From an uncultured Rhodopila sp. (lineage in GTDB: Bacteria; Pseudomonadota; Alphaproteobacteria; Acetobacterales; Acetobacteraceae), in contig CAINOE010000086.1 of NCBI GenBank assembly GCA_903851415.1, positions 1-64,000 of the forward strand: DNA of 64,000 nt, in the 5' to 3' direction. A model generated the notes under the pieces. That model was given only the letters and a program-made list of their open reading frames with translations, was not told the DNA's origin and did not search any database. This document shows positions 1 to 26,101 of the stretch, in pieces. The number at the start of each line of letters is the position of its first letter. Positions within the stretch are counted from its first letter, which is position 1. Position numbers and translations under genes: made by a program.

Positions 1-1
1 G

Positions 2-3000
2 AGCCTGGTGCGGCCGCGGGCGGGGCAGGCGGCGGAGGCGTTGGGGTGGACGACGCTGCTGGAGGCGCTGGCACGGCTGTGGCGGGACGGCGCCGCGGTG
101 GACTGGGTGGGACATGACGCGCCGTATCGGCCGAAGGTGGCCGATGCGCCGGGGTATCCGTTCCAGCGGCAGCGGTATTGGTTCCAATCCCAAGCCAAGG
201 CCGTGCCGGCACTGCTGGCGGGGGAGCGCATCGAGCTCGCCACTGGCGGCACGGTGTTTCGAGGCAGGCTGGATAGTCGGGATCTCCCGTTCCTCGCCGA
301 TCACGTCGTCCTGGGCGAGACAATCGTGCCGGGCGCATCCCATATTGTCACCCTGCTGTCCGCTTCGGGCGCGGCGCTGAGCGACATCGTCTTTGCCGCG
401 CCGCTCAATCTGCCGGACGGTGGCTGTGCGACCCAGGTTTACGTGCGCGATAACCGGATCGAACTGCACGCCGATGCCGCCGGGGCTTGGACGCTGCACA
501 CCAGCGCGACCATGGCGCCCGTGCCTCCCGTGCCCCCGCCGGTGGATCGCGCGGCGATCATGGGTCGCTGCGTCGCTGATCCGGACGGCCCGGCGGCGCT
601 GCACGCCATGCTTGAGACACGCGGCATCACCCTCGGTCCGTCGTTCCGCGGGATCACGCGGCTGTTCCGCGGCGAACACGAGGCGCTGGTCGAGGTTGCG
701 CTGCCCGCTGATGTCCCGGCCGTGCCGCCACTGCACCCTGCGCAACTGGACGCCTGCTTCCAGGCACTGGGCGCGACCTTCCAGGGCAGCGGCGCCGGCG
801 GCGCATTCCTGCCTCTAGCGGTTGACCGGGTGGTGCTGCACCGCAATTTCTCCGGCCCGCTTTGGGCGCATGTCCAGGCGCAAGGCTCGGGGGGCGCCAG
901 CACCGAGATCGCCACCGGGGATGTGACGCTGTTCGACGCCGATGGCGAGCTGATCGCCTCGATCACCGGACTGACCATCAAGCGCGTGGGCACCGCGGCG
1001 GCCGATATGTCCCAGCGCTGGACGTATGAGGTCGCCTGGACCGCGCGCGAGGAACAATCCACCACCCTGCCGCCGCCGGAGGCGCTGGCCGCACTGGTTG
1101 AGGCCGCGCGTGACGCGACCGCACCGCAAGACCCGGCCAGTCTGGCTGAAGGACTGGAGCGACTCGCCGCCGCCTATGCCGCACAGGCGCTCGCGGCCGT
1201 CGCCCCCGCCTCGGTCGCACCCGGTCAGCAGCGGCTGTTCGCTCACCTCCCCACCATGGCGGCCGGTGCCGGCGGACAGCCCGAATCGCTGGCCGCGGCG
1301 CTGACAGCGCAGCACGGCGAACGGATGGAAATCGCCCTGTGCCGCCGCAGCGGCCGGGCCTTGGCCGCGGTGCTTCGGGGCGAGGCTGACCCGCTGGCCG
1401 TGCTGTTCGGCGACGGCGACGGCGCTTCGGTCTACGCCGAACCGCCGTTTGCGCGGATGCTCAACGCCATGATCGTGGCGGCGCTGCGAGGCATGATCGA
1501 TGCCCTTCCCCCCGGTCGCCGACTGCGCATTCTGGAGATCGGCGCCGGCACGGGCGCGGTGTTCGCCGCCCTGCAAGCCACGGTGCCGCAGTACCGGGTG
1601 GCCTACACATTCACCGATGTGTCGCCGGTTTTCCTCGACACTGCATCGTCGGGCTTCGGCGCTGCGCTCGAACGCTGTGCGCCGCTCGATATCGAGCGGC
1701 CGCCCGAGGCGCAGGGTTTCACGAGCGGCAGCTATGACGTGGTGCTGGCGGCCAATGTGCTGCATGCAACACGCGAGCTCGGGGACAGCCTGCGGCACGC
1801 GGCACGGCTGCTCGCGCCGCACGGGGTGCTACTGTTGCTGGAGGCGGTGGGTCGCAGCAACTGGGCGGACCTCGTCTTCGGCCTGACCCCCGGCTGGTGG
1901 CGTTTCGCCGATACCGCGCGGCGCCCGTCGCACCCATTGCTGGCGCAACCCGCCTGGCAGGCGCTGCTGGCCGAGCACTTTGCCGAGGTAACAGCGGTCG
2001 CCTCTCCCGGAGACGGGCAGCAGATGCTGGCCATCGCCCACCGGCCACGGCCGGAACGCCCGGTGCTGGTCTGGGAAGCGCCCGCCGGGTTGGCGCCGCT
2101 CGACCTGGCCGACAGCGCGCTGCAGGTCGTGCAGCGGGCGCTGGCCGAGACCAGGCCGCCCGCGCTGCGCCTGATCACCCGCGGTGCCCAACCGGTGGCG
2201 GAGTGTGCAATCGATGTGGATCAGTCGGTGCTGCTCGGGCTCGGCCGGGTCATCGCGATCGAGCATCCCGAACTGGACCTCCGGTTGCTGGATCTGCCGC
2301 CGGGCATCCCCGCGACCGTGGCCGACTCGGTTCCAGCGGACTTGAAGGAGGCTGCGTGGCGGAATGGCGTCTGGCATTCGCCGAACCTGATCCGCGTCAG
2401 CTTGCCGCGGGAGCCCGTTTTCACGACCGGCGGGACACACCTGATCACCGGCGGCCTGGGCGGCTTGGGTGCATTGCTCGCTGAATGGCTGCTGGAACGC
2501 GGCGCGGCCCGGGTCGTGCTGATGGCCCGAAATGCGCGCTCGGGCATGGCGCTGCCGGCAAACGTCACCCTGGTCATCGGCGATGCCGCTCGGCCGGAGG
2601 AGGTGCGCCGCGTGGTGCATGATATCGGCGAGGAGCTTCGTGGCGTCTTCCACCTCGCCGGGACTCTGAGCGACGCCGCGATCCTCCGGCTGTCCCGCGA
2701 CGATCTCGCCCGGGTTTTTGCCGGGAAGGTCGAGGGCGCGCGCAACCTGGATGTGGCGGTTGGCACGCGGGTGCTCGACGCGTTCGTGCTGTTCGGCAGT
2801 TCGACCGGGCTGATCGGAAACCCCGGCCAGGGTGCCCACGCGGCGGCCAACGCCTATCTCGCCGCTATGGCGCAACACCGGCAGCAGCGCGGTCTCACCG
2901 GTCTGTGCGTGGATTGGGGAGCGTGGGGGGAGGCTGGCACGCTGACCCGCTCCTCCGTCGGCGATCGCCTGGTGGCGGCCGGCGCCGCGCTGATGCCGCC

Positions 3001-3583
3001 GGCCGGCGCGCTGAGCGGCCTGAGCAGCGCGATCGTGGCTGGCAAGGCGCGCGTACTCGTGGCGGCGATCGAATGGCCCCGCTTTCTTGCCGGCTACGGC
3101 GACGCTATCCCGGCGTTTTACGCCGCAGTCGCCCCACCGCGTCGCGCCGTTGCCGCCGCCGGTCAAGCCGCGGCCGATCCTCGGGCCAGCCGCGCTGCGC
3201 TGGCCGCGTTTGTTGCCAACGCGGCCGGGCGGGTACTGGGTGCCGCCGCCGGCGAGGCGCCGGCACCTGACGCCCCGTTGAACGAAGCCGGGCTGGATAG
3301 CCTGATGGCGCTGGAGTTGCGCAAGGCACTGAGCGTCGGGCTCGACCTGACCCTTCCGGCAACGCTGTTGTTCAACTTCCCGACGATCGATGCCTTGATC
3401 GAGCACCTGGCGCCGCAGGTTGGCCTGGCGGAGGTTCAAGCGGCGCCTGCACCGCTGCCGCCACCACCGCCACCGGCCATGGCGCCTGATACAATACTGG
3501 AAAGCGTCATGCGGATGTCGGAAGCGGAAATGGCCGAGGTTATCGCGCGCGAATTCGCCTTCACGGTGGCGGCCCGTGGCTGA
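2..3583 (+). CDS. Type I polyketide synthase, C-terminal part (DH-MT-KR-ACP), 5' end outside window
   Basis: The open frame runs in from the left edge, so the N-terminus (KS and most of AT) is missing. Counted from base 2, the visible protein starts with the post-AT linker (YPFQRQRYW near residue 56). A dehydratase follows, with HxxxGxxxxP at about residue 101 and the second motif HPAQLDACFQ near 247. Next come a C-methyltransferase (LEIGAGTG near 511), a ketoreductase (ITGGLGGLG near 811, SSTG further on) and an ACP with GLDSLMAL, whose phosphopantetheine serine is near 1100. The module would add one methylated, dehydrated (alpha-methyl-enoyl) unit. The ketoreductase has His where Tyr is usual (GAHAAANAY), a common variant. 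Its stop overlaps the next gene by 8 bases. The family call is secure; the extender is unknown because AT is not visible. Confidence 0.95.
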   Translation, partial: SLVRPRAGQAAEALGWTTLLEALARLWRDGAAVDWVGHDAPYRPKVADAPGYPFQRQRYWFQSQAKAVPALLAGERIELATGGTVFRGRLDSRDLPFLADHVVLGETIVPGASHIVTLLSASGAALSDIVFAAPLNLPDGGCATQVYVRDNRIELHADAAGAWTLHTSATMAPVPPVPPPVDRAAIMGRCVADPDGPAALHAMLETRGITLGPSFRGITRLFRGEHEALVEVALPADVPAVPPLHPAQLDACFQALGATFQGSGAGGAFLPLAVDRVVLHRNFSGPLWAHVQAQGSGGASTEIATGDVTLFDADGELIASITGLTIKRVGTAAADMSQRWTYEVAWTAREEQSTTLPPPEALAALVEAARDATAPQDPASLAEGLERLAAAYAAQALAAVAPASVAPGQQRLFAHLPTMAAGAGGQPESLAAALTAQHGERMEIALCRRSGRALAAVLRGEADPLAVLFGDGDGASVYAEPPFARMLNAMIVAALRGMIDALPPGRRLRILEIGAGTGAVFAALQATVPQYRVAYTFTDVSPVFLDTASSGFGAALERCAPLDIERPPEAQGFTSGSYDVVLAANVLHATRELGDSLRHAARLLAPHGVLLLLEAVGRSNWADLVFGLTPGWWRFADTARRPSHPLLAQPAWQALLAEHFAEVTAVASPGDGQQMLAIAHRPRPERPVLVWEAPAGLAPLDLADSALQVVQRALAETRPPALRLITRGAQPVAECAIDVDQSVLLGLGRVIAIEHPELDLRLLDLPPGIPATVADSVPADLKEAAWRNGVWHSPNLIRVSLPREPVFTTGGTHLITGGLGGLGALLAEWLLERGAARVVLMARNARSGMALPANVTLVIGDAARPEEVRRVVHDIGEELRGVFHLAGTLSDAAILRLSRDDLARVFAGKVEGARNLDVAVGTRVLDAFVLFGSSTGLIGNPGQGAHAAANAYLAAMAQHRQQRGLTGLCVDWGAWGEAGTLTRSSVGDRLVAAGAALMPPAGALSGLSSAIVAGKARVLVAAIEWPRFLAGYGDAIPAFYAAVAPPRRAVAAAGQAAADPRASRAALAAFVANAAGRVLGAAAGEAPAPDAPLNEAGLDSLMALELRKALSVGLDLTLPATLLFNFPTIDALIEHLAPQVGLAEVQAAPAPLPPPPPPAMAPDTILESVMRMSEAEMAEVIAREFAFTVAARG

Positions 3584-4112
3584 TACTATCATCGCCTTGC
3601 CGGCCCCACCGCCGATGACCGGCCGCATCCCCCGGGAGCCGCTGGACGAATCCGTGCTGGGGAAGTTGCTCGGCGCGCTTGCCGCCCGGCCCGGTCCGGT
3701 TCCCAAATACCGCTATCCGTCCGCCGGAACGCTCTATCCCGTGCAGGCCTATATCGTCCTGAGCCGTCCCGTGGATCGCCTCGCCGCCGGGAGCTACTAC
3801 CACGATCCGGTGGCGCATGCCCTGGTGGAGTTGTCCGCCGCAACGCCCGCCGCGCCGGACGGAACCACGCCACCTGCGTTGCTGATCCTGGTTGCCCGCG
3901 GCGCGGCGATCGATCCGATCTACGGCGCGCACGCGGACGCTCTGTGCCTGTTGGAGGCCGGCTATATGGAGGCAGCCCTGGACGCCGCCGGGACCGGCCT
4001 GACGTTGCGCGATGCCGGCGACCCGGCCGGACAACCGGCCCTGGCTAATGCATTCGCACTCGAGGCCGATGATCGGCCGCTGGTGTCCCTGGCGATTGGG
4101 GAGAACCTGTAA
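3576..4112 (+). CDS. SagB-type (nitroreductase-fold) FMN oxidase, stand-alone
   Basis: This is a 178-residue protein using a GTG start that overlaps the PKS stop by 8 bases; an alternative ATG lies at 3615. It contains KYRYPSAGTLYPVQAYIV (residues about 44-61), the hallmark of the SagB/McbC-like thiazoline oxidase family and of Ox domains in thiazole-forming NRPSs such as EpoB. It also has a C-terminal GYMEAALDAAGTGLTLRD helix typical of the fold. Known members use FMN to oxidise azolines to azoles. Together with the cysteine-loading Cy-A module in the same cluster, this suggests oxidation of a thiazoline to a thiazole in trans. It is translationally coupled to both neighbours. Another dehydrogenation of the polyketide is possible. 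Confidence 0.82.
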   Translation: MADTIIALPAPPPMTGRIPREPLDESVLGKLLGALAARPGPVPKYRYPSAGTLYPVQAYIVLSRPVDRLAAGSYYHDPVAHALVELSAATPAAPDGTTPPALLILVARGAAIDPIYGAHADALCLLEAGYMEAALDAAGTGLTLRDAGDPAGQPALANAFALEADDRPLVSLAIGENL

Positions 4113-5020
4113 TGGCGGCTGACACAACCCTGGCCGCACCCCGTGGCAAGCTGCGGGAGGCGTTGGACTACCTGCTTTGGTTCTACACGCCGTTCAAACC
4201 CATGTCGGCCAGCGACATCTATGAACTGATTTCCACCAACGCCTTCAGCGGGGAGGGACTGTATCTCAACCTCGGCTACTGGAAGTCCGCGCGCACCATC
4301 GATGAAGCCTGCGTCGCCCTGGCCATGCTGGTCGCGGAAACCGCCGGCATCACCGCCGGCAGCGAGGTCGTCGATGTGGGCTTCGGGTTCGCCGATCAGG
4401 ACATGCTGTGGATCGATCGGCTGGCGCCGAAGCATATCACCGGGCTGAACATTACGCCATCCCAGGTGCGGCTGGCGCAGGAGCGTGTGTCGAAGCGCGG
4501 CCTGTCCGACCGAATCGGGTTGCTGCAGGCCTCGGCGACCGCAATGCCGCTGCCGGACGCAAGCTGCGACCAGGTGGTCGGGGTCGAGTGCGCGTTCCAT
4601 TTTGACACCCGCGAGGACTTCTTTCGGCAGGCCTTCCGCGTCCTCCGTCCGGGGGGGCGGCTGGTGCTGGCCGATGTAATCCGCGCGGACCCCGATCCTC
4701 GGCCGCTGCGCCGCCGGGCACAGGATTTCAACTGGACGTTCTTCATGCGGAAATACGCCGTTCCCGCCGCCAACGCCGATTCGCGGGAGTCCTATGCCGC
4801 CAAACTGACCGCGGCAGGGTTCACCGGCGTGCGGGTCGATTCGATCCGCCACGATGTCTATCCGGGGCTGCACCGCTGTATGGCCGAGGACCCCGCCTTG
4901 CTGCGCCGGTTCCATTTCCTGGCTCGGCTACCCTACTGGCTGACGTTGCGGCTGAAGCCGGAACTCGTCTACAGCGCGTACGACTATGTGCTGGCGGTGG
5001 CGGAGAAGCCGCCCGCGTGA
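4112..5020 (+). CDS. SAM-dependent methyltransferase (class I), tailoring
   Basis: This is a 302-residue class I methyltransferase. The SAM-binding motif VDVGFGFADQD sits near residues 90-100, followed by the acidic strand (ITGLNITPSQ), the ATAMPLPDASCDQV region and VLRPGGRLVLADV near 180-192. This pattern matches small-molecule O-/C-methyltransferases of the UbiE/erythromycin-OMT type. Its ATG shares a base with the upstream TAA, and its own end overlaps the phosphoesterase GTG, so it belongs to the plus-strand biosynthetic operon. It most likely methylates a hydroxyl or carboxyl of the product. The target cannot be read from sequence. Confidence 0.85.
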   Translation: MAADTTLAAPRGKLREALDYLLWFYTPFKPMSASDIYELISTNAFSGEGLYLNLGYWKSARTIDEACVALAMLVAETAGITAGSEVVDVGFGFADQDMLWIDRLAPKHITGLNITPSQVRLAQERVSKRGLSDRIGLLQASATAMPLPDASCDQVVGVECAFHFDTREDFFRQAFRVLRPGGRLVLADVIRADPDPRPLRRRAQDFNWTFFMRKYAVPAANADSRESYAAKLTAAGFTGVRVDSIRHDVYPGLHRCMAEDPALLRRFHFLARLPYWLTLRLKPELVYSAYDYVLAVAEKPPA

Positions 5021-5832
5021 GGCTTTGGGCCATTTCCGATCTGCATCTGGCGATGGAGCGCAACCGCGAAGCCTTGCTGGCCCTGGCCGCCTACCCCGAA
5101 GACTGGCTGATCGTTGCTGGCGACGTGTGCGAAAGCATCGATCTGTTCACCGAGGCGTTGGGCTGGCTCGCCCGCCGTTTTGCTCGCGTCATCTGGGCGC
5201 CCGGAAACCACGAGCTATGGTTGACCGACCGGGACCGGGATACTCCCGGCAGCGTGGCCAAGTACGATGCCCTGGTCGCGGCCGCCCGGCGCCTGGGCGT
5301 GCTGACGCCGGAGGATCCATTCACTGCGTGGCCGCCGACGGGGGACGTCATCGTGCCGCTTTGCACTTTGTACGACTACAGCTTTCGGCCTGCGGGCGTC
5401 GCTCTGGATGATGTCGTGGCCTGGGCCGCCGAACTGCGGAACGTCGCTGCGGATGAGCACTTGATCAGGGCCGCACCGTATCGCGGAATAGCTGACTGGT
5501 GCGCGCAGCGCTGCGATCAGACCGAAGGTCGCCTGGCACGCGAACTGCCTGCGAACGCACGCACCATCCTGGCCGGGCATTTCCCGTTGCGGCAGGATGT
5601 AGTGCGGATTCCGCGTATCCCCCGCTTCACCCCGTGGTGCGGAACGATACGGACGGAGAACTGGCATCGCCGCTTCCGCGCCGTCGCCGCGATCAGCGGC
5701 CATCTGCATGTCCGTCGCAGCGACTGGCGCGATGGCACGCGGTTCGAGGAGGTCTCGCTGGGGTATCCGGGGCAGTGGGATCCGGCAAAAGGGGTTGCCT
5801 TCTACCTGCGCGAGGTGCTTCCGGTTGGATGA
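5017..5832 (+). CDS. Calcineurin-like metallophosphoesterase
   Basis: This is a 271-residue protein with the ordered metallophosphoesterase motifs: SDLHL (residues 7-11), GDV (about 35-37), GNHE (about 66-69), AGHFP and a late SGHLHVRR, which supply the two-metal centre. It starts with GTG overlapping the methyltransferase stop (GTGA), so it is cotranslated with biosynthetic genes. Family members hydrolyse phosphomonoesters or diesters. Its role here could be removal of a phosphate or phosphopantetheine-linked group, or self-protection by processing a phosphorylated intermediate; both are inference. No signal peptide is visible, so it is probably cytoplasmic. Confidence 0.85.
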   Translation: MRLWAISDLHLAMERNREALLALAAYPEDWLIVAGDVCESIDLFTEALGWLARRFARVIWAPGNHELWLTDRDRDTPGSVAKYDALVAAARRLGVLTPEDPFTAWPPTGDVIVPLCTLYDYSFRPAGVALDDVVAWAAELRNVAADEHLIRAAPYRGIADWCAQRCDQTEGRLARELPANARTILAGHFPLRQDVVRIPRIPRFTPWCGTIRTENWHRRFRAVAAISGHLHVRRSDWRDGTRFEEVSLGYPGQWDPAKGVAFYLREVLPVG

Positions 5833-5877
5833 TACCAATCCGCGTTGAGAGCGACTCTCCGGCGGCGCCTCCCCGTC

Positions 5878-5957
5878 ATGCCGACGAAGGTCGGCATCTA
5901 CGCCTTTTCCCTGCGTAAACAAAGGCATGGATGGTGCATCCCCGGCCTTCGCCGGGG
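5878..5957. repeat. Pair of REP-like palindromes in convergent gap; possible bidirectional terminator
   Basis: Two hairpins occupy the gap between converging genes. The first has a perfect 8-bp stem at 5878-5885/5890-5897 (ATGCCGAC, loop GAAG). The second has a perfect 7-bp stem at 5940-5946/5951-5957 (CCCCGGC, loop CTTC). Similar palindromes occur near 35.66 kb and 58.76 kb. Neither is followed by a strong T run, so termination by them is only suggested by position. Confidence 0.6.
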
Positions 5958-5988
5958 CAGGCTTCGCGCATCATGACGATGGGGCGAC

Positions 5989-7215
5989 CTATCCGCAATC
6001 CAGGACGAGAGCCGTCAGGCCTCGAACCAGGATGCTCTCCTGCCGCTGGCTCGAGACGACATTCAGCCGCGGAAATCGTTGCGCCAGCGCGGTGAACACC
6101 ATCTCCGCCTCCATTTGTGCCAGGCTGGAGCCGGCACAGGTATGGATGCCGGCGCCGAACGCCAGGTGCCGCGTCTCCTCCCGTCCCGGGTCGAGCTTGT
6201 CCGGATCGACAAACACACGCGGGTCACGGTTGGCCGAACCCACCCCGAACCCGACAGTCTGCCCCTTTCGGATGGCGGTGCCCGCGAAGTTCATGTCCTC
6301 CAGAGCGTGACGGAAAACGATCTGCTGAGGACTGTCGTACCGCAGCAATTCCGTCACCACCGACCTGGCGCTGACCGCACCGTCCCGCAGCAAGGCCCAC
6401 TGGTCAGGGTGCTGCGCCATCGCGCACAGCCCGTTGCCGATAAGCAGCGATGAAGCCTCATGGCCGGCAAACAGGAACAGCACGCAGGACGCGAGCAGTT
6501 CATGATTGTCGAGGAAGCTGCCGTCGTCATGCGCGGCGATCAGCAGGCTCATGAGGTTGTCCCGCGGCACGCGGCGATGCTCGTTCACCAGCCGTTCGAA
6601 ATACCCGATGAGTTCGCCCGCCCGCCGGCTGCCGGCGGCGATCCGCTCCGGTGTGCGCACCATATCCAGGGACAAGGTGATTTCGCGCACCCAGCCGCGA
6701 ACCAGCCCGTGGTCCTCCTCCGGCACGCCCATCAGGTCCGCCACGATGTCGATGGAGAGCGGGGACGAAAACTCGGACACGATGTCGAACGGGCCGCGCT
6801 GCGGAATGCGCGCCAGCGCCGCTGCAAGCAGCAGCTCGATGCGGGGGCGCATGGCCAGGACGGCGCGCAGGCTGAATACCGGGGCGGCGATGCGACGCAG
6901 GCGGGCGTGTTCCGGCGGGTCCTTGAACAGCATCCAACTGCTGAGCATCGCATACAGCGGCTGGTGCGCCTCCGGTATCGGCGGAAACGCGTCGGCCGGC
7001 ATAACCCGGGTGATCTCGCGGCCGAAGCGGTTGTCCTTGAGTCCCGCGGCGACGTCGGCATAGCGGCTGACGAACCAGAATCCGGCATAGCCGACAGCCG
7101 GCGTGGCGGCCCAGCCCACCGGATGATCGTCGCGCAGGCGCGTATAAGTTGGGTAGGGATCCTCGATGAAGGCTGGATCCAACGGCCGGAACACCGTCTG
7201 CCGCGCGGCCGGCAT
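5989..7215 (-). CDS. Cytochrome P450
   Basis: This is a 408-residue bacterial class I P450. It has an I-helix motif AGHEASS (Ser in place of the usual second Thr, near residue 243), a K-helix ExxR (ELLRY, near 283) and a haem-ligand loop FGAGIHTCAG near 347. There is no membrane anchor. It begins 3 bases after the carrier-fused P450 and is the last gene of the minus-strand biosynthetic operon. It probably hydroxylates or epoxidises the polyketide or thiazole product, with electrons from a ferredoxin not seen here. The substrate is unknown. Confidence 0.92.
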   Translation of the reverse strand: MPAARQTVFRPLDPAFIEDPYPTYTRLRDDHPVGWAATPAVGYAGFWFVSRYADVAAGLKDNRFGREITRVMPADAFPPIPEAHQPLYAMLSSWMLFKDPPEHARLRRIAAPVFSLRAVLAMRPRIELLLAAALARIPQRGPFDIVSEFSSPLSIDIVADLMGVPEEDHGLVRGWVREITLSLDMVRTPERIAAGSRRAGELIGYFERLVNEHRRVPRDNLMSLLIAAHDDGSFLDNHELLASCVLFLFAGHEASSLLIGNGLCAMAQHPDQWALLRDGAVSARSVVTELLRYDSPQQIVFRHALEDMNFAGTAIRKGQTVGFGVGSANRDPRVFVDPDKLDPGREETRHLAFGAGIHTCAGSSLAQMEAEMVFTALAQRFPRLNVVSSQRQESILVRGLTALVLDCG

Positions 7216-7218
7216 CGC

Positions 7219-19085: not shown

Positions 19086-19124
19086 CGGCGAATGTCCTCT
19101 TGCGGAGCAGCAGACCGGCACGGG

Positions 19125-20273
19125 TCACGCGCAGGCTTCCATCAGCCTGCTGGCGACGATGTTCAGCGGCACCTCCGGCCCGTCGGCCGGCGCGCCTGCG
19201 ATCAGTTGAAGGCAGTCACGAAACATCGAAATGATCAGGATGCTTCCGCCGCCGCGGGCCGAACTCATGACCAGGCGCATCGTGGTATCGGCGTCCGTGC
19301 CGCCGGTTCGCCCGACGGTCGGGGCACCGGTGATCGTCATGGCCGCCGGCTGGTAGTCCGGCGCCCCGCCCAGCAGCAGCTTCGGCAGCGCCAGCAGCAT
19401 GTCCCCCGCCGCGCCATCGCGGATCTGCCCGAACAGGTCCGCCCGGTTGTCGCGCGCGGCGTCCCAGAAAGGTCCGGGCGTTACCGCAGTAAAGACATGC
19501 GCCACCGCGAGACCCGGACCAAGCGGCGGCGGCGGGCGGATGAAGCGGTTCATGTCCACCGAGTGCGCGACCTGAGCGATCTGCATCGTGTCGCGCAGCG
19601 CTATGGCCAACGCTCCGTTGAGTGACACGCCTTCCGCTTCGCAGCGCCCCTGCAGCCTGGCGGTTTCGTCTGCTGTCAGGCGCCAGAGCGAGAACCGGGT
19701 GGCGCCCTGGCGCGGCAGGATCGCGGTGAGCGCTTCCAGTCCCAGGGCTTCCCAGCGGGCGGTGGCGCGGCTGCTCCACCAGGCGTCGATCAGCGCGTCG
19801 GCGTCGGCGGCTGCGAAACAGCCTGCCGGCAGCATTTCTTCGCAAGGCGGCGCGAGCGGGCCGGGGTGCTCGTCCGCCAGGAACGCGCTGGCAACAAGGA
19901 GGCCGGTTCGCCAGTCCGTCAGCGCATGGTTCACAGCCAGAAGCAAAGTGAAACCGCCGGGATCATGCTGAACGACCGCGTGCCAGGGCGGATGGCCGGC
20001 GCTGCCGACGCGGACCCTTAGCAAGCGCTGCGCTTCGGACAACCAGGCCATGTCGTCAGCCACCTCCTGCCGTTCCAAAACCCCCGGCCGATCGGCGTCG
20101 CCCCAGCGGGGGCGGGATCGGACGCCGGCATGCACGACGGGCACGGCGAACCGGCGCGGGGCGTCGAGCGGGGGATACCGGCCCGTACGCTGCACGACGA
20201 TGACGCTGTTCATCGGGGCAACCCAGTCCAGCAACCAGAACTTGGCTTCGTTCGGACCCAGCAAGCGGTGCAT
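19125..20273 (-). CDS. Condensation-domain-superfamily acyltransferase (PapA/alcohol acetyltransferase-like)
   Basis: This is a 382-residue free-standing protein. It has an HxxxD motif in NHALTDWRTG (near residue 137), equivalent to HHxxxDG of NRPS condensation domains and HxxxD of PapA-type acyltransferases. Its C-terminal SSARGGGSILIISMF stretch resembles the second subdomain of those enzymes. It has no adenylation or carrier domain. It lies 15 bases after the free ACP gene and 39 bases before the PKS-NRPS, so it probably takes an acyl group from that ACP or releases a chain onto an alcohol or amine. The remote family assignment rests on motif placement and length. Donor and acceptor are unknown. 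Confidence 0.65.
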   Translation of the reverse strand: MHRLLGPNEAKFWLLDWVAPMNSVIVVQRTGRYPPLDAPRRFAVPVVHAGVRSRPRWGDADRPGVLERQEVADDMAWLSEAQRLLRVRVGSAGHPPWHAVVQHDPGGFTLLLAVNHALTDWRTGLLVASAFLADEHPGPLAPPCEEMLPAGCFAAADADALIDAWWSSRATARWEALGLEALTAILPRQGATRFSLWRLTADETARLQGRCEAEGVSLNGALAIALRDTMQIAQVAHSVDMNRFIRPPPPLGPGLAVAHVFTAVTPGPFWDAARDNRADLFGQIRDGAAGDMLLALPKLLLGGAPDYQPAAMTITGAPTVGRTGGTDADTTMRLVMSSARGGGSILIISMFRDCLQLIAGAPADGPEVPLNIVASRLMEACA

Positions 20274-20288
20274 CGGGACGCTGCTCCC

Positions 20289-20543
20289 TCAGGCCTTGGC
20301 GGCAGTCTTGGCCAGCAGCAGGTCGATCATCTTGCCGACATTTGCCAGCTTGCCGACCTCGGCCGGATTAAGCTTCACGGCGAACCGGCGCTCGATCGCC
20401 AGCACCAGGACGATATGCTGCAGCGAATCCCAGTCGTCGATGTCGGCGGCGGTCATGGCATCGAACAGTTCGAGGCCGGGATCGTCGAAGGTGTCCTGGA
20501 AGATGCCGGTGAGTTTCTGGATGACTTGTTCGCGGTCAGGCAT
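20289..20543 (-). CDS. Free-standing acyl carrier protein
   Basis: This is an 84-residue ACP with DWDSLQHIVL at about residues 37-46; the serine is the phosphopantetheine site. Its ATG overlaps the end of the FkbH gene by 8 bases. This FkbH-ACP order is standard for glyceryl-ACP cassettes, in which FkbH moves the glyceryl group of 1,3-bisphosphoglycerate onto the ACP. It resembles the carrier tail of the P450 fusion. The methoxymalonyl enzymes that normally follow (FkbI- and FkbK-like dehydrogenases) are not present in the window. Confidence 0.92.
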   Translation of the reverse strand: MPDREQVIQKLTGIFQDTFDDPGLELFDAMTAADIDDWDSLQHIVLVLAIERRFAVKLNPAEVGKLANVGKMIDLLLAKTAAKA

Positions 20544-22440
20544 ACAACGTTTCTCCGGTGGCCGAAACGGCTTTCACCCGGGTTTTCCACCCCGGTGCAG
20601 CGCGGTCGAGTTCAAGTATCCAGGTTTTCGTCGTTTCATCCGCCGGCGCGAATCCCAGGCGTTCGTAAAGATCGGCCACGAGGCCATTTTTCGCGGACCG
20701 GACATAGCGTCCGGCCAACCGGTGGCAGCCCTGCGCCAGGGCGATCGATCGGATCTCGTTGGCGATGAATTCCTCGACGCCGCGACCGAGGACGCGGCAA
20801 CTCATGACCCAAGTGTCAACATGCAGGGTGGCGTGCTCGCGATGCAGCACCAGGCAGGCAATAAGGCCGCTGTCGCCAAAACGGTCCGACAGGCGGACAT
20901 GCCGCACGAACCAGTCCGGCCGCGCCGCGATCGACGCCAGTTCAGCTTCCCCGTAGCGCGTGCCGGTCAGGTGGAACTGGTTGCTCTTGCCGATAAGCTG
21001 GCTCATGCGCGGCAGGTTGAACGCATCCGCCGGGCCGACGATCGCTGTCATCTCCAGGCTGGCCAGGTAGGCGTCCATATCGGTGAAAGTGCTGCGGACG
21101 GCCGTGCGCCCGGCGTGTTCGGCATAAAAACGGCTGCGCTCCCGGTCTTCGGCAGACAGCGCGATCATTTCGAACCATCCGCAGCGGCCCAGGGCGGCGA
21201 CGTATCCGGCCGGATCGTCGGGCAGGTCCACGACCGCAACCTCGGGCAGGTTGCGGGCGACGATGTCGCGTTCAAGCGGGTTGTCGTCGACAAAAACGAT
21301 CGCATCCAGGCCGATGTTCAGGGCGCCGGCGATATCGCGGATGTTGTCTGCCTTGTTGTCCCAGTTGGCGGTGAAAACTGCGAAATCTTCAAGCCGCAGA
21401 ACGCTGTCGGGGTGGTCGCGGAACACGCTTTTAGCGATCTCGGGGTCGTTCTTGCTGCACACGGCGAGGATGACACCGCGCTGCTGCAGCGATTTGATGG
21501 TGCGCTGAAACGCGACGAAAGCCTCGCCTTCCGCACCGGATCCCAGCTTTATGCCGGCAATCCCGTCGTCGCCGATGACGCCGCCCCAAAGGGTATTGTC
21601 CAGATCCAGCACCAGACATTTCTTCGATAATCCGCGGGCGCCGGCGATCAGCCGGGCGGCTGAGTGGGCGACGGTGCCGGAGGCATCGAGCGCGAAGGCA
21701 TGGCGCGAGTGGAACCAGTAGCGCGCGTCCTCCCAGCGCCGCTTGCCCCACAGGCTGGCGACGTGGTCGAGGTCGAACAACGCCACGCCGGGCCCGGCGG
21801 CCGCGGCGAGTTCGGCGTTGTAGCGACGGAGCAATGTGCGGCGTCCCCATGGCGCGGCGCCGGCGAGGTTGCCGAACGGATCGTCGGCCGGAATGTCGGC
21901 CGAATTGTCGATCACCAGGCAACCCGTTCCTTTCTGCAGGCTGTGCCACAACGCCTGTCGCGCGGCGACTGCACCGGCGACCGCGCCCGCAATCGCCTCG
22001 GGTGCGGCATCAGCGGAGACTTCCAGGCCGGCGTCCCGATACGTCGAAAACAGCCACACGATGTCCGGCTGCCATTGATGCAGCGCGCTGCCGGAATCGA
22101 GCACCGCTGCGGCGATCGTGTCGAACGGGTTGATGAATATGTCCGCAGCAAGGCCGGCATCGGCGAGCCAGAACCGCAACACGCCGGCAAAATGGTCCAC
22201 GGTGCTGGCAGCGACCAGTGCGATGCGCACGCTGCGACAGCCAAGGACATGGAGGTCGACCGCGGACAGGGCTTTCGCGACCCGTGCCTGATCGACGAAG
22301 TCGCTGTCAGGGGTGATGCAGGCCCGTAACGTGGCGAACGCGCCCGCGTGATCGCCAGCCTGAACCGCAGCCTTCGCGCGGACAAGGGCGGATTTAAGGA
22401 TCGCTTGGTCCGCGGTCACCGTCGGCACTTCCCCCGGCAC
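20536..22440 (-). CDS. FkbH-like HAD-family glyceryl-ACP synthase
   Basis: This is a 634-residue protein with a GTG start. The N-terminal half (about 40-255) is the domain typical of long FkbH proteins. The HAD catalytic motif DLDNTLWGGVIGDDG is at about residues 280-294, followed by SKNDPE and VDDNPLERD. The C-terminus is a GNAT-like region ending with YERLGF. FkbH enzymes dephosphorylate 1,3-bisphosphoglycerate and load a glyceryl thioester on a partner ACP; some members load lactate. As first gene of the minus operon it should supply an unusual C3 unit. It diverges from the MaoC gene across a 171-base gap. Confidence 0.93.
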   Translation of the reverse strand: MPGEVPTVTADQAILKSALVRAKAAVQAGDHAGAFATLRACITPDSDFVDQARVAKALSAVDLHVLGCRSVRIALVAASTVDHFAGVLRFWLADAGLAADIFINPFDTIAAAVLDSGSALHQWQPDIVWLFSTYRDAGLEVSADAAPEAIAGAVAGAVAARQALWHSLQKGTGCLVIDNSADIPADDPFGNLAGAAPWGRRTLLRRYNAELAAAAGPGVALFDLDHVASLWGKRRWEDARYWFHSRHAFALDASGTVAHSAARLIAGARGLSKKCLVLDLDNTLWGGVIGDDGIAGIKLGSGAEGEAFVAFQRTIKSLQQRGVILAVCSKNDPEIAKSVFRDHPDSVLRLEDFAVFTANWDNKADNIRDIAGALNIGLDAIVFVDDNPLERDIVARNLPEVAVVDLPDDPAGYVAALGRCGWFEMIALSAEDRERSRFYAEHAGRTAVRSTFTDMDAYLASLEMTAIVGPADAFNLPRMSQLIGKSNQFHLTGTRYGEAELASIAARPDWFVRHVRLSDRFGDSGLIACLVLHREHATLHVDTWVMSCRVLGRGVEEFIANEIRSIALAQGCHRLAGRYVRSAKNGLVADLYERLGFAPADETTKTWILELDRAAPGWKTRVKAVSATGETLYA

Positions 22441-22611
22441 ATTGTCCTTAACCCGGCGCTTCGCCGTACGATACCAAGTTACCGGCCGCAGTTCCAGGGA
22501 AAGCAGCGGGTGGTGAAACTGTCAACAGCGTCCTTGCTCGGGTTGCCGTCCCCGTGCCACGTTACTTTCACCAACAGACAGTGACCGGGCTTTCCAGGGG
22601 GACCATGCACC
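22441..22611. promoter_or_regulatory. Divergent intergenic region between the FkbH and MaoC operons
   Basis: This 171-base gap must hold the promoters for both the minus PKS-NRPS operon and the plus MaoC/radical SAM/MBOAT operon, because both first genes start here. A purine-rich AGGGGGA precedes the MaoC start. No convincing -35/-10 pair or operator could be picked by eye. Confidence 0.45.
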
Positions 22612-23073
22612 ATGAGGCCAGACGTCGCCGATTATGTCCTTGCTGACCTGACCGTTGGCCAACGCGCCGAGTTCGAAGCGGTGATCACCGATAACGACAT
22701 TGACGCATTCGCCTATCTGTCTGGCGACAGAAGCCCTTTGCACATAGACGGAGCGTTCGCACGGGATCGCGGTTTCGGCGACCGTGTGGCGCATGGCGCA
22801 CACCTTATCGCACTCGCGAGCCGTCTGGTCGGGATGTATTTGCCGGGGCGCAATGCATTGCTGCAAGCGGTGAATGCGTCGTTTGTGTCTCCGGTATTGC
22901 CGGGGACGCGGGTCACGGTCAGTGGTGTTGTCGACCAGTTGTCCGACAGTGTCCGGTCTGCGGGATTGAAGCTGCGGATCGTAAACAGTGACACAGGCGC
23001 AATGCTCGCCCGCGGGCGCCTGACCGTCGGCTTCACGGAGCGCGCAAGCCGGGAGAACGCGGCCCATGCCTGA
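22612..23073 (+). CDS. MaoC-like hot-dog dehydratase
   Basis: This is a 153-residue single hot-dog domain with the MaoC/R-hydratase signature FAYLSGDRSPLHID (about residues 37-50), which supplies the catalytic Asp and His, and a later AHGAHLIALASRLVG helix. MaoC-type hydratases interconvert enoyl and 3-hydroxyacyl thioesters. Its end overlaps the radical SAM gene by 8 bases, so they are coupled. It may act in trans on a carrier-bound polyketide, for example to form or remove a beta-hydroxyl. A primary-metabolism hydratase recruited to the cluster is the alternative. Confidence 0.82.
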   Translation: MRPDVADYVLADLTVGQRAEFEAVITDNDIDAFAYLSGDRSPLHIDGAFARDRGFGDRVAHGAHLIALASRLVGMYLPGRNALLQAVNASFVSPVLPGTRVTVSGVVDQLSDSVRSAGLKLRIVNSDTGAMLARGRLTVGFTERASRENAAHA

Positions 23074-24685
23074 CCTCGACCTGATCCTGATCACACAGTC
23101 GAACGTGGTCGATTATGAAGGCTTCGGCAAGCTGCCGCTGGAGCGGCTGGAGCTTTACAAATCGCTGGTTTACCCCCGCATGGTGCATCATGCGGGCGGC
23201 TTTCGTTCGCACCTTGATTACCTTAATCACCAGCGCTTCGGGAAATTCTTCGACCAAGGCTCATTCGCGGAGCGGCGGCGGATGCTGAACATTTGGAACC
23301 TGCCCTCCATGGCCGGGGTCCACCTGGCCAACTACCTGAACCAGTTCGGTCTGCGCGTTCGCCTCATAAACAACCTGGATGCAGAGTGGGACTGGTTCGA
23401 AGCGGCCTATGCCGGCTGCGCGCGGCCGCCGTTGGTCGGCATTTCCTCGACTTTCTATCTGTCGTGGAAGGAAGTCGGCAATGTCGGGAAACGGCTGCGT
23501 CACGTCGACCCGGATATGGATATCGTGCTGGGAGGCGCCTTCGCCAATTCCGAAACTATTCATGCCAGCCCAAAGGACTTCGAAGAGCGGATGCGGCGCT
23601 TCGGTATCCGCTATACGCTGCACGCGTTCAATTCCGAGCCCGACCTGCGTGATCTGCTTATCGCGCGGCGCTCGGGCGGTACCCCCGCCAGCGTGCGAAA
23701 CATGGCCTGGATCGACGGCAAACTGCGCAGCGGCAGTTTCGCGGCCGGCAGCCAAAAGTGGAATACCCCTTTGCTTTCGCTCTCTGATTGTCCCCCGACC
23801 TGGGATCGGCTCGATCTGCCTTTTTTGAATCGCACCATCCAGATCCGCACTGCCTCCGGCTGTCCGTTTGCATGCGCGTTCTGTTCCTATCCCACCACTG
23901 CGGGCGCCTGGACTACGGTGCAGGCGGAGCACGTGCGGGCCCACCTCGATTCCGTCATGCGAATACCCGGGATTGATCGCATCATATTCATCGACGACAC
24001 ATTCAACGTCCCGCCGCATCGTTTCCGCGAGCTGATTCGTATTTTTGCTGAGTATGATTTCGAATGGTTCTCGTTCCTGCGCGTGCAATACGTGGATGAG
24101 GAGGACGTGAAGATGATGAAGGACTCCGGTTGCGCCGGCGTCTACCTCGGCATCGAATCAGCCAGCGACACGGTTTTGAAAAACATGAACAAGCGTGCCA
24201 CCTCGCGACAGTTTGCCGAGGGGGTCCGATTACTGAACAAGTATGATATTCCATACCTTGCGGCCTTCGTCCTTGGCTTCCCGGGGGAGACCGAAGGGAC
24301 TATTCGGGAAAATGTAGACTTCATACGCGACAATGGCGTGCGGTTCTATTCGCTTAAGGAATTCTACTACATGGCGCACACCGCGGTTCACGAGAAGCGC
24401 GAGGAATACGGCCTGACCGGCATGGGCAACAAATGGTCGCACGCGACCATGACGCATGAAGATGCGGCCCGCATCAAGCTCGATATCTTCCAGTCGGTGG
24501 GCGAGAGCACCCACGTAGATCCGGACACGAGCCTGTGGTATTTGGCCTACCTCTACGACCAGGGCTACGACTTCGACGCCATTACTCGCGAGCAGGCCGG
24601 CATCAACGACGTGATGAAGCGGCAGCTCGTCACCTTGGATCGCGCGTCCAAGTGGGAGTCGGCGCTGCCGGCCGCGGCCGAATAG
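23066..24685 (+). CDS. Cobalamin-binding radical SAM enzyme (class B methyltransferase-like)
   Basis: This is a 539-residue protein with an N-terminal B12-binding-like fold (about residues 70-200; ANYLNQFGLRVRLINN, GISSTFY, VLGGAFANSE). The radical SAM core carries the CxxxCxxC cluster motif GCPFACAFCSYP near residue 270, then IIFIDDTFNVP, GCAGVYLGIESAS and AAFVLGFPGETEG. Class B members methylate unactivated carbons using methylcobalamin; some only use B12 structurally. In this cluster it is a candidate C-methylase of the thiazole or polyketide chain. Partner genes on both sides are closely spaced on the same strand. Confidence 0.85.
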   Translation: MPDLDLILITQSNVVDYEGFGKLPLERLELYKSLVYPRMVHHAGGFRSHLDYLNHQRFGKFFDQGSFAERRRMLNIWNLPSMAGVHLANYLNQFGLRVRLINNLDAEWDWFEAAYAGCARPPLVGISSTFYLSWKEVGNVGKRLRHVDPDMDIVLGGAFANSETIHASPKDFEERMRRFGIRYTLHAFNSEPDLRDLLIARRSGGTPASVRNMAWIDGKLRSGSFAAGSQKWNTPLLSLSDCPPTWDRLDLPFLNRTIQIRTASGCPFACAFCSYPTTAGAWTTVQAEHVRAHLDSVMRIPGIDRIIFIDDTFNVPPHRFRELIRIFAEYDFEWFSFLRVQYVDEEDVKMMKDSGCAGVYLGIESASDTVLKNMNKRATSRQFAEGVRLLNKYDIPYLAAFVLGFPGETEGTIRENVDFIRDNGVRFYSLKEFYYMAHTAVHEKREEYGLTGMGNKWSHATMTHEDAARIKLDIFQSVGESTHVDPDTSLWYLAYLYDQGYDFDAITREQAGINDVMKRQLVTLDRASKWESALPAAAE

Positions 24686-24703
24686 GTTGCGCCGCGCCGC
24701 TGC

Positions 24704-26101
24704 ATGACCGTCGTCGACACGCCTTTTCTGCTCGTTGCGGTTGCAACCGTGCTTGCTTTGCGTGTGCCCGCACTGCGTGCCTGGCGGATGGAGGTCCTCG
24801 GAATCTTCAGTCTGGCATTTGCCGGCCGCGTCGTCGCGTCGGCCGGCGATGCCGCCATGCTGCTGGTCATGGCCGCCACCGGCTGGATTATGGTTCGTCT
24901 GCTGTCACGCTCCAAAAGCAGACTCCTGCTCGCCTTCGGCATCGGCTGCGTGCTGACTGAATTTCTGGTCTCGGGGAAGATCCTGCCGTATACCCTGCCC
25001 TGGCACCCGGTCGCGCGCGCGATAGGGCTGTCGTATGTCATGTTTCGGGTGTTACACGTCATGGTCGACGCCCATGGCAATGAACTACCGGCCGGGTTGA
25101 AGCTACGCCACTACGTCTGCTATCTCTTTTGCTACCTGACGTTTCTCGCCGGGCCGATCCAGGGGGTTCGGGATTTTGTTGCTGAAATAGGCGTCGGCAA
25201 GCGAACGAACCTGCTTGCCGCTGCGAAGACCGCCGTGCCCGCGATCATTAGCGGATATTTCAAATACACCTTTGTCGCGGCGACATTCTTTGCGTTTCTC
25301 AGGTGGAGCCAGGAAGCCGGGTCGAATATGCCCGCGCCGATCGGCCATGCAGTCGGGTGGTTGAGTTTTGCCGCCTACCTCTATGCCAGCTTCTCCGGTT
25401 ATACCGACATCGTACGCGGGATTGGCAGCTTGATAGACCTTGATTTGCCGGCCAATTTCAATCGGCCGTTTGCCACTATCAACTTTCTGGATTTTTGGTC
25501 GCGCTGGCATATCAGCCTGTCCGATTGGTTCAAGCTTTATGTGTTCAATCCCACAGTCAAAGCGATGATCTCTACCACCGGGCGTCCGGCGCTGGTGCCC
25601 TATCTGGGAGCCATCGGCTATTTCATCACATTCTTTCTGATGGGCCTCTGGCATGGGGTGAGTTGGCGGTTCGTTCTCTACGGGGTGTGCCTCGGCGCAG
25701 GCGTCTGCATCAACAAGCTGTATCAGTTAGGCCTTTCGCTATGGCTTGGACGCTCCCGCACCGGCGTTTTGACGCGGCGGTGGCTTTATACCGTGGTTGC
25801 GCGATCACTTGCGCTTGGTTTCTTCATTGTAATGCTCGGGTTCCTCTGGATCTCGGCGGCATCGACGGACAGAGCGACGCTCGAAGGGTGGGCTGAAGGC
25901 GCCGGGTTGGTCGTGGTCGCCGTGTTGCTGCTGACGGCGCTCGTGATGGCGATGGGCGAACTGACAGCATCAGCTCGGCGCTTATGGGCGCCAACCCGGG
26001 CGGTCAAAGCGATCCTGTATGGCGTCCAGGCGGTTGCTGTGATTCTCTATGTGGTTGTGTTGCGTCTCCCGGTGCCTCCACTGCTGTATGAATATTTCTA
26101 A
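24704..26101 (+). CDS. MBOAT-family membrane O-acyltransferase
   Basis: This is a 465-residue multi-pass membrane protein with about ten hydrophobic segments. The MBOAT signature FWSRWHISLSDWF is near residues 263-275, and the catalytic histidine region GLWHGVSWRFVLYG is near 312-325. Relatives (DltB, AlgI) pass acyl groups across or onto substrates at the membrane. It starts 18 bases after the radical SAM gene and ends the plus block. It could O-acylate the natural product during export, or belong to envelope metabolism. No SGNH/DltD-type partner is next to it. Confidence 0.88.
   Translation: MTVVDTPFLLVAVATVLALRVPALRAWRMEVLGIFSLAFAGRVVASAGDAAMLLVMAATGWIMVRLLSRSKSRLLLAFGIGCVLTEFLVSGKILPYTLPWHPVARAIGLSYVMFRVLHVMVDAHGNELPAGLKLRHYVCYLFCYLTFLAGPIQGVRDFVAEIGVGKRTNLLAAAKTAVPAIISGYFKYTFVAATFFAFLRWSQEAGSNMPAPIGHAVGWLSFAAYLYASFSGYTDIVRGIGSLIDLDLPANFNRPFATINFLDFWSRWHISLSDWFKLYVFNPTVKAMISTTGRPALVPYLGAIGYFITFFLMGLWHGVSWRFVLYGVCLGAGVCINKLYQLGLSLWLGRSRTGVLTRRWLYTVVARSLALGFFIVMLGFLWISAASTDRATLEGWAEGAGLVVVAVLLLTALVMAMGELTASARRLWAPTRAVKAILYGVQAVAVILYVVVLRLPVPPLLYEYF

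Follow-up and report, generated by a model that had tools for sequence, protein, structure and literature searches.

The locus raises two linked questions: how a PKS-NRPS assembly line in which most ketosynthase (KS) modules lack an AT is fed, and whether the acyl-transfer genes beside it act on its product. In the window (the whole 64,000-nucleotide stretch of DNA analyzed here, from an uncultured relative of the acetic acid bacteria), the genes concerned occupy positions 1–26101 and sit in three blocks: left (+), middle (−), and right (+). Every part named in the initial annotation, from FkbH/ACP to MBOAT, was recovered there by Pfam, TIGR models, and domain HMMs. These genes are best explained as the 3′ portion of a modular PKS-NRPS that spans at least ~71 kb, and in our best reading this hybrid would employ a glycerate-derived acyl-ACP as an ester donor.

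Extent of the cluster

Base 1 of the window is also base 1 of contig C86, so on its left side the cluster is cut off by an assembly break. Contigs C86 and C61 begin with the same 127 nt (no longer stretch was compared), as if both contigs entered a single collapsed repeat. Beyond the window start, the assembly line resumes on four further contigs of this genome (G000), C7, C61, C90, and C74, as anticipated from the truncated left side; we infer the joins between these contigs. Together the five contigs hold ~71 kb of the line (contigs summed, gaps excluded). To the right of ~26.1 kb lie a CoA-transferase gene and ten sampled genes, none of them cluster-like, which makes this position a fair boundary.

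Terminal module and tailoring genes

The middle block encodes the terminal PKS-NRPS, a protein of 3463 aa (8667–19058, −) with the order KS-(no AT)-DH-MT-KR-ACP-ACP-Cy-A(MT)-PCP-TE according to Pfam, domain HMMs, and motifs. It has the features of an HMWP1/PchF-type end: the Cy motif DxxxxDxxS (here DLIALDAAS), a Cys-type A domain, an embedded MT, and a TE. Solved Cy-A chains (6lta, BmdB, and dihydroaeruginoic acid synthetase) rank high, and the A domain pocket, DLYNMSLIW, is of Cys type by eye against the known signature. The module looks Cys-specific on these sequence features, and the hybrid PKS-NRPS ending and accessory set described in the initial annotation are as listed. Its predicted product is a methylthiazoline acid. 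If the terminal MT acts on Cα, as in yersiniabactin, the ring could not be oxidized to a thiazole. Thus, of the earlier prediction of a “methylthiazoline or thiazole acid,” the terminal Cys module stands, but the two acids become alternatives, and a thiazole more likely stems from an internal Cys-type module with an embedded oxidase, located on C61.

The operon runs FkbH-ACP-acyltransferase-PKS/NRPS-P450-P450, with spacings of −8, 15, 66, −4, and 3 nt. The P450 at 7219–8670 (−), identified by P450 models and with orthologues at 70–85%, carries a fused C-terminal acyl carrier domain (TIGR00517 at 404–477, below its cut-off); the other (5989–7215, −) has orthologues at 81–85% in the sister genomes G019, G024, and G030.

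The left block begins with the C-terminal part of PKS module 10 (2–3583, +; 74% in G024 and 64% in G030), read from Pfam and domain HMMs as AT end/post-AT linker-DH-MT-KR-ACP, its 5′ part missing at the contig edge. The apparent AT end and linker were read by eye, and the G030 orthologue begins with the C-terminal half of an AT (found by our own HMM; Pfam gives 23.9 bits, below cut-off); on these grounds an AT-less status for this module was rejected. Downstream lies a stand-alone SagB/BmdC-like protein, a putative thiazoline oxidase (3615–4112, +; 67% in G024 and 63% in G030). It scores 42.6 bits against TIGR03605, short of the cut-off of 78.4, and its nearest solved chain is BmdC (E 1e-7). 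There follow a class I SAM methyltransferase (4112–5020, +; Methyltransf_11, E 8e-18) and a metallophosphoesterase (5017–5832, +; PF00149, E 7e-13; orthologues at 82% in G024 and 76% in G030). The methyltransferase is matched at 78–82% in G024 and G030 and at 59–62% in G006 and G008; no match was found in G019, so the 3′ end of block A in that genome is unproven.

Descent of the assembly line and supply of its modules

In total, the line comprises ten KS modules, the internal Cys module with its embedded oxidase, and the terminal Cy-A(MT)-PCP-TE. G019 keeps contiguous order for M1–M4 on its contig C76 and for M4–M10 on C118. Domain HMMs find the AT missing from 7 of the 10 KS modules in what is assembled (with G019 and G024 as the source for M8 and M9), and the KS-to-DH gaps measured in three G000 modules are 148 aa (M7), 153 aa (M5), and 162 aa (M11). 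The initial annotation's AT-less PKS module is accordingly the KS module of the middle block, one of seven, and not the first module of the window, which probably had an AT. M1 has its AT; an AT in every module, as in a cis-AT line, is not found. Those of M4 and M10 we infer, no whole AT of either having been seen in the four genomes. The KR Tyr is replaced by His in M4, M7, M8, M10, and M11, so these reductions are uncertain.

The KS domains point to ancestry. In a tree whose references were the best plasmid matches to two queries, the M11 KS and a single KS from a separate trans-AT cluster on C107 of G000, a cis-AT-type clade (94/92) holds M1–M5 and M8–M11 with five named AT-bearing references. 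A trans-AT clade (96/90) takes each of the 10 C107 KSs included in the tree, along with 7 of the 8 reference KSs for which no AT was detected. Nine of the ten line KSs thus fall in the cis clade and none in the trans-AT clade, with M7 in neither. Eight of the ten (M2–M5 and M8–M11) form one clade (97/78), the grouping by duplication typical of cis-AT lines. The best explanation of these sequence relationships is that the line is of cis-AT descent and would since have lost the AT from 7 of its 10 KS modules.

What might feed these modules is suggested by the sister genomes, one of which is 68% complete. The only ATs found in them are the M1 AT, one AT of FabD size in each (FabD being assigned from gene size), and a contig-edge AT fragment in G030; no dedicated trans-AT was thus found, and loading is probably the task of the embedded ATs of M1, M4, and M10 or of FabD. 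Because G000 itself has two discrete ATs at C107, AT sharing is argued from the sisters only.

A proposed glycerate-derived acyl donor and a Dlt-like cassette

At the head of the operon lie a predicted FkbH-type glyceryl-ACP synthase (20536–22440, −; TIGR01686, 309 bits against a cut-off of 146.65; 3slr, E 2e-57) and a stand-alone acyl carrier protein (20289–20543, −), an ORF with the motif WDSL, weak matches to ACP models, and orthologues at 75–76%. The next gene (19125–20273, −) encodes an HxxxD acyltransferase of condensation-type fold. As a single sequence it finds no solved relative, and a profile of its four orthologues matches PapA5 (8s6l, E 4e-9) with HxxxD aligned; PapA_C reaches 14.7 bits against a cut-off of 30, so we call it PapA5-like only. 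The AlphaFold model (four sequences) is too poor to use, with a mean pLDDT of 37.7. FkbH and ACP share the operon with this acyltransferase, the terminal PKS-NRPS, and the two P450s in all four genomes.

The right block consists of three genes. The first encodes a MaoC-like dehydratase/hydratase (22612–23073, +; PF01575, E 4.5e-19). The second encodes a B12-type radical SAM enzyme (23066–24685, +) related to PhpK, with 363 bits against TIGR04479, short of the cut-off of 600 for the P-methyltransferase itself; its CxxxCxxC is invariant in six sequences. The third is a DltB-like MBOAT (24704–26101, +; DltB 8jem/6bug, E 3e-25; TIGR04091, 157.7 bits against a cut-off of 375) ending in the Tyr motif LLYEYF. 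In five sequences, the His of WHG, the Tyr of the terminal motif, and the final Phe are invariant. The C termini (LLYEYF, LLYTYF, VLYAYF, and VVYMRF) resemble the FXYXXF shuttle motif, with Leu or Val in place of its initial Phe, so that the protein has both the catalytic His and the C-terminal motif of an MBOAT-SGNH shuttle. In the sister loci we saw no SGNH partner next to the MBOAT; a crude motif scan gave one match, a sulfatase-looking ORF of 508 aa in G019 at a distance of ~11 kb.

The trio is on another contig in G019 and G030, adjoining an acyl-CoA-dehydrogenase-like gene, and mere linkage to the cluster was rejected on that ground. Outside the genus, the radical SAM gene shares a gene row with FkbH in two loci. 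One, in a Planctomycetota MAG (L037), has the Dlt-like order FkbH-ACP-MBOAT-MaoC-SGNH-rSAM, in which an SGNH gene (PF13472) adjoins the trio genes; no PKS gene was seen in the 19.8 kb covered, and the genome gave no terminal-NRPS match at 1e-20. The other, in a Rhodospirillaceae genome (L036), groups FkbH, ACP, MaoC, and rSAM among nonulosonate/glycan-like genes (named by eye), with no MBOAT match in the 21.6 kb covered. A third candidate, G564, was dropped: the ORF beside its radical SAM gene, 153 aa without a Pfam match, resembles only the C-terminal part of FkbH. Thus the trio, listed in the initial annotation as pathway accessories, is present, but the three genes look like a Dlt-like acyl-transfer cassette rather than ordinary polyketide tailoring genes, and their kind also occurs in a locus with no PKS gene in view.

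Proposed pathway and competing explanations

These elements could work together as follows. The line would make a polyketide that bears C- and O-methyl groups and contains an internal thiazole, its AT-less modules probably loaded as proposed above; the terminal cysteine would be added, cyclized, and probably α-methylated to a 4-methylthiazoline carboxylate, and the thioesterase would free the product. FkbH would place a glycerate-derived C3 acyl group on the stand-alone ACP, and from this acyl-ACP the PapA5-like enzyme would form an ester with a polyketide hydroxyl. The C3 unit itself may be altered by MaoC and the B12 radical SAM enzyme. The DltB-like MBOAT may take the same acyl-ACP and move the acyl group across the membrane. 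The product, the C3 chemistry, and the acyl acceptors in this scheme are predictions. On balance we lean toward this combination of a cis-descended PKS-NRPS, embedded ATs or FabD feeding AT-less modules, and one acyl-ACP serving both ester formation and the MBOAT. We are doubtful of its most far-reaching form, in which a PKS of cis-AT ancestry shed most ATs, gained no trans-AT, and has all its modules supplied by a handful of embedded ATs or by FabD, coupled to a glycerate-based, Dlt-like system that would both esterify the polyketide and carry the acyl group across the membrane.

Two neighboring systems could instead be present, a PKS-NRPS metabolite pathway and an independent envelope-acylation cassette (FkbH-ACP, MaoC, rSAM, and MBOAT) decorating a surface polymer in Dlt fashion. 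The gene rows of L037 and L036, the shuttle-like end of the MBOAT, and the separate contig of the trio in G019 and G030 all speak for this. We nevertheless consider it somewhat unlikely because FkbH-ACP lies inside the PKS-NRPS operon in 4 of 4 genomes, because among 243 relatives the radical SAM enzyme is confined to the four operon-bearing genomes, and because no SGNH partner was seen next to the MBOAT in the sister loci. It is quite unlikely that FkbH acts as a primer, with the PapA-like enzyme passing a glycerate-derived starter unit to the AT-less loading carrier of module 1. It would fit that, in each of the four genomes, the module-1 protein starts with a carrier and has no loading AT ahead of its first KS, but PapA5 esterifies hydroxyls and is not known to act on carrier thiols, and the FkbH-ACP genes are not adjacent to module 1. 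An ordinary trans-AT PKS-NRPS served by the discrete ATs of C107 would explain at once the two stand-alone ATs of G000 and the seven AT-less modules. This we regard as very improbable, and the C107 enzymes were rejected as suppliers: the sisters own the line yet no such ATs were found in them, and all KSs except that of M7 group with cis-AT references.

If the favored combination is right, a natural loss of ATs has been caught within a cis-AT line, with AT-bearing and AT-less modules as close relatives, and the feeding of AT-less modules without a dedicated trans-AT becomes directly testable. The carrier-protein acylation kit of FkbH, ACP, MBOAT, MaoC, and B12 rSAM would then occur across different phyla, in some cases with a natural-product cluster and in others away from one, pairing a C3 acyl group with a PhpK-like enzyme; elsewhere it is perhaps used on the bacterial cell surface.

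Distribution and novelty

Orthologues of the line occur in three further species (G019, G024, and G030) of the 33-genome genus, and FkbH orthologues of at least 65% in 4 of the 33 genomes, our own included. The restriction of the radical SAM enzyme to these four may simply mean that they are one clade. Profile searches for it found 2 of 398 genomes phylum-wide (our own and G564) and, around the Planctomycetota genome, 1 of 343, that genome itself. For the PapA-like protein, plasmids gave no match, and a class-wide draw of 385 genomes gave 1, its own.

Matches to the terminal NRPS in 1981 plasmid records were all below 60% identity, and none in 150 family genomes besides its own exceeded 45%; G095, a family member, reaches 40% over the NRPS but arranges Cy, A, and MT differently. 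Literature searches returned an aeruginosin review and nothing else for FkbH, MBOAT, and polyketide; a lichen atlas and nothing else for Acetobacteraceae clusters in freshwater MAGs; nothing for thiazole, methylthiazoline, polyketide, and alphaproteobacteria; and, among the matches listed for modules lacking an AT, mostly off-topic work. The cluster is thus undescribed-looking, as first suggested, with no close match in the plasmid collections and literature searched.

Relation to known systems

In yersiniabactin HMWP1, a KS module precedes Cy, MT, PCP, and TE, and pyochelin PchF is Cy-A(MT)-PCP-TE. The terminal module here likewise has Cy, an MT within the A domain, PCP, and TE, preceded as in HMWP1 by a KS module; it differs in its long upstream polyketide line, tandem ACPs, and a KS module without an AT. 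The pairing of a Cy-A module with a stand-alone oxidase recalls the bacillamide synthetase BmdB/BmdC, but the oxidase here is shorter and only weakly similar to BmdC, and the internal Cys module has its own embedded oxidase. The enacyloxin PKS mixes AT-less and AT-bearing modules and uses discrete ATs, and the kirromycin PKS is likewise described as combining both kinds of module in one line with discrete ATs. The same mixture is found here, but in three of the four genomes the only discrete AT found is of FabD size.

In the glycerate-using tetronate and methoxymalonate pathways, for which tetromadurin provides a described example, FkbH works with a stand-alone ACP, as proposed here. Unlike the tetronate systems, the annotated window genes include neither a FabH-like tetronate enzyme nor a glyceryl-ACP dehydrogenase, and have PapA5-like and MBOAT acyltransferases instead. 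PapA5 itself is described as transferring mycocerosates to phthiocerol. Finally, the likeness to Dlt (DltA-DltC-DltB-DltX-DltD) lies in a carrier protein and a DltB-like MBOAT with a conserved His and C-terminal Tyr motif, whereas FkbH replaces DltA, the shuttle motif is fused to the MBOAT, and an adjacent SGNH gene is found in L037 only.

Results

The PKS-NRPS cluster proposed in the initial annotation holds on gene and domain content, and the three blocks combining its named parts are present within positions 1-26101. Block A (+ strand) comprises a DH-MT-KR-ACP PKS end, a SagB-like oxidase, a methyltransferase and a metallophosphoesterase. Block B (- strand), a single tight operon with gene spacings of -8, 15, 66, -4 and 3 nt, comprises FkbH, an ACP, an HxxxD acyltransferase (19125-20273), a KS-DH-MT-KR-ACP-ACP-Cy-A(MT)-PCP-TE protein, a P450-carrier fusion and a P450. 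Block C (+ strand) comprises MaoC, a B12-type radical SAM enzyme (rSAM, 23066-24685) and an MBOAT. None of eleven genes sampled right of 26.1 kb was cluster-like (CoA-transferase, GH5 cellulase, DUF3108, MlaE permease, NUDIX, molybdenum oxidoreductase, MFS, FMO-like, H+-pyrophosphatase and two without a family).

The cluster is larger and odder than was first described. In the genome itself (G000; 7.09 Mb, 215 contigs), the first 127 bases of C86, the contig whose bases 1-64000 form the window, are also the start of contig C61 (127 being the longest length tested), and ends are common to C61/C7 and C74/C90 (at least 99 nt each) and to C61/C90 and C7/C90 (at least 77 nt each). These contigs (C61, C7, C74 and C90) carry PKS-NRPS genes; the left part of the cluster is missing from the window, as had been supposed. 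Relatives keep the line genes on longer stretches than G000: among sister species G019, G024 and G030, M1 through the M4 KS lie on G019 C76, G030 C113 and G024 C100; M4 through the M10 KS on G019 C118 and G024 C139; and the M10 end, then the oxidase and methyltransferase, on G030 C4 and G024 C82. The line starts with a carrier, M1 (KS-AT-MT-KR-ACP) and M2 (KS-DH-ER-KR-ACP), and continues with M3 (KS-ER-KR-ACP-KR, the DH after its KS not being found), M4 (KS-AT-oMT-MT-KR-ACP), M5 (KS-DH-KR-ACP), M6 (Cy-A-Ox-PCP), M7 (KS-DH-MT-ER-KR-ACP), M8 (KS-DH-MT-KR-ACP), M9 (KS-DH-ER-KR-ACP), M10 (KS-AT-DH-MT-KR-ACP), M11 (KS-DH-MT-KR-ACP-ACP) and M12 (Cy-A(MT)-PCP-TE). We infer the ATs of M4 and M10 and the joins M4 KS-C61 and M10 KS-C86, which span assembly breaks. 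A type II thioesterase (PF00975) precedes M1 in G019, and a weak TE match occupies the equivalent position on C7.

Block A is less complete than the other blocks across relatives. Its methyltransferase is found in G000, G024 and G030, is absent from G019, and recurs in two further genomes (G006, G008) at 59-62% identity, with no PKS domain within a few kb around. In the window the methyltransferase and metallophosphoesterase overlap at 5017-5020, whereas an acyltransferase-3-like gene lies between them in G024 (C82, 5072-6343; by eye) and G030 (C4, 5554-6774; PF01757).

The terminal A domain has the specificity positions DLYNMSLIW (by eye), which we take to be a cysteine signature, and the terminal Cy motif is DLIALDAAS. 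An oxidase of the nitroreductase type (PF00881, E 1.5e-11) sits in the Cy-A module on C61, which makes thiazole formation likely at that module. Of the methylthiazoline or thiazole end first predicted, the terminal Cy-A(MT) with its cysteine-like signature stands, but if the last ring is alpha-methylated its quaternary carbon precludes a thiazole; either the stand-alone oxidase would then act on the inner ring, or another position is the target of the MT. The expected catalytic Tyr of the KR is His in M4, M7, M8, M10 and M11, that is, in all MT-bearing modules except M1 (including window 2-3583 and 8667-19058), and likewise in the sister sequences compared. Whether or not such KRs are active affects any prediction of the structure, which is limited accordingly.

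Discussion

We favour a variant of the hybrid PKS-NRPS type that has lost ATs and would use a putative glycerate-derived ester donor. PF00698 has six matches in G000: the M1 AT, one each in C147 and C6, a 361-aa protein on C49 and two stand-alone ATs on C107. The latter contig carries a separate large trans-AT PKS cluster (about 72-137 kb) with 15 KS matches. G019, G030 and G024 (2, 3 and 2 matches) each have the M1 AT plus one stand-alone AT protein of 321 to 336 aa, taken by its size for FabD; the extra G030 match is a contig-edge piece of the M10 AT (23.9 bits with Pfam, below cut-off; 65 bits with our own HMM). The M4 and M10 ATs would thus have been largely lost in assembly gaps, an outcome that near-identical repeats lead one to expect. 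In the other seven KS modules neither Pfam nor our HMM matched an AT, and the KS-to-DH gap is 148, 153 and 162 residues in the three G000 modules with both domains that were measured. That assembly missed a stand-alone AT gene in all three sisters (97, 98 and 68% complete for G019, G030 and G024) is less likely. As to how the AT-less modules may be loaded, a malonyl-CoA:ACP transacylase is reported to have rescued an AT-inactivated module (PMC6164871). In the KS tree (34 rows, with the C6 row omitted, ten of the 15 C107 matches included and one Eleftheria row on a very long branch), nine of the ten line KSs group with C147 and five named AT-bearing KSs; the M7 KS, next after the NRPS module, stands apart. 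All ten C107 KSs placed fall in the trans-AT clade, with AT-less Bacillus, Methylosinus and Eleftheria KSs. The references are not a neutral sample because the M11 KS and a single C107 KS were used to pick them as best plasmid matches. According to PMC7930024, the cis-AT KSs of a given family usually form a monophyletic group, and trans-AT KSs sort by substrate; by that yardstick, the line is of the cis-AT kind with lost ATs.

A glycerate-derived acyl unit could serve as ester donor for such a line. Judged by its profile, the partner acyltransferase of the FkbH-ACP pair here is PapA5-like: the single sequence retrieved no solved relative, and a four-orthologue profile retrieved one solved chain, PapA5 8s6l (E 4e-9), with HxxxD aligned; the PapA_C model fell below cut-off. 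PapA5 moves mycocerosates onto phthiocerol, according to PMC12370991. The orthologues in G019 (L054, 14149-15618) and G030 (L058, 15034-16362) contain low-complexity inserts that keep the reading frame and include words such as PRVMAG and GRDKPGHD, reminiscent of repeated elements that spread within coding sequence; a search of the window for the longer of the words found none.

Block C is separable from the PKS-NRPS yet co-occurs with it. The rSAM is present in 4 of 243 relatives (G000, G019, G024 and G030, all within the genus), and the same four, among 33 genus genomes that are probably all within the 243, have FkbH at 65% identity or more; some FkbH match occurs in 33/33, at 32-51% outside the four. 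In G019 and G030, block C lies on a contig other than that of block B and adjoins an acyl-CoA-dehydrogenase-like gene, and an ispDF-like gene flanks block B (both by eye). In the four species the fate of the cassette is tied to the PKS-NRPS, although common descent of the four could lie behind the co-occurrence of rSAM and FkbH.

Outside the genus, rSAM keeps company with FkbH. A Rhodospirillaceae MAG locus (L036) has it in one gene row with FkbH, ACP, MaoC, SDR and glycan-type genes (NeuA, NeuB and KdsB-like by eye); over 156-20737, two FkbH genes stand with these among nonulosonate-synthesis-like genes. A Planctomycetota MAG locus (L037, 4890-11626) carries these genes in the order FkbH-ACP-MBOAT-MaoC-SGNH-rSAM. 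No PKS gene was seen next to them, and the terminal NRPS part has no match at 1e-20 in either genome. In a further genome (G564), rSAM adjoins a 153-aa ORF resembling only the C-terminal part of FkbH. The cassette thus resembles an acyl-transfer kit of general use, with surface polymers as a possible target.

One known system with related parts is Dlt. At an E cut-off of 0.01, the solved relatives of the MBOAT are two DltB sequences (E 3e-25), and PMC12148441 describes a carrier protein as the acyl donor of DltB. By their likenesses to PapA5 and DltB, the two acyltransferases thus look like enzymes fed by acyl carriers. The same source gives DltB-related MBOATs a C-terminal, Tyr-bearing FXYXXF motif and states acyl-CoA as their donor; the window protein ends in the Tyr-bearing LLYEYF, its Tyr and final Phe invariant in five sequences including that of the planctomycete, and its donor could be acyl-CoA. 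The L037 row is possibly a Dlt-like system, loading glycerate where Dlt loads D-alanine.
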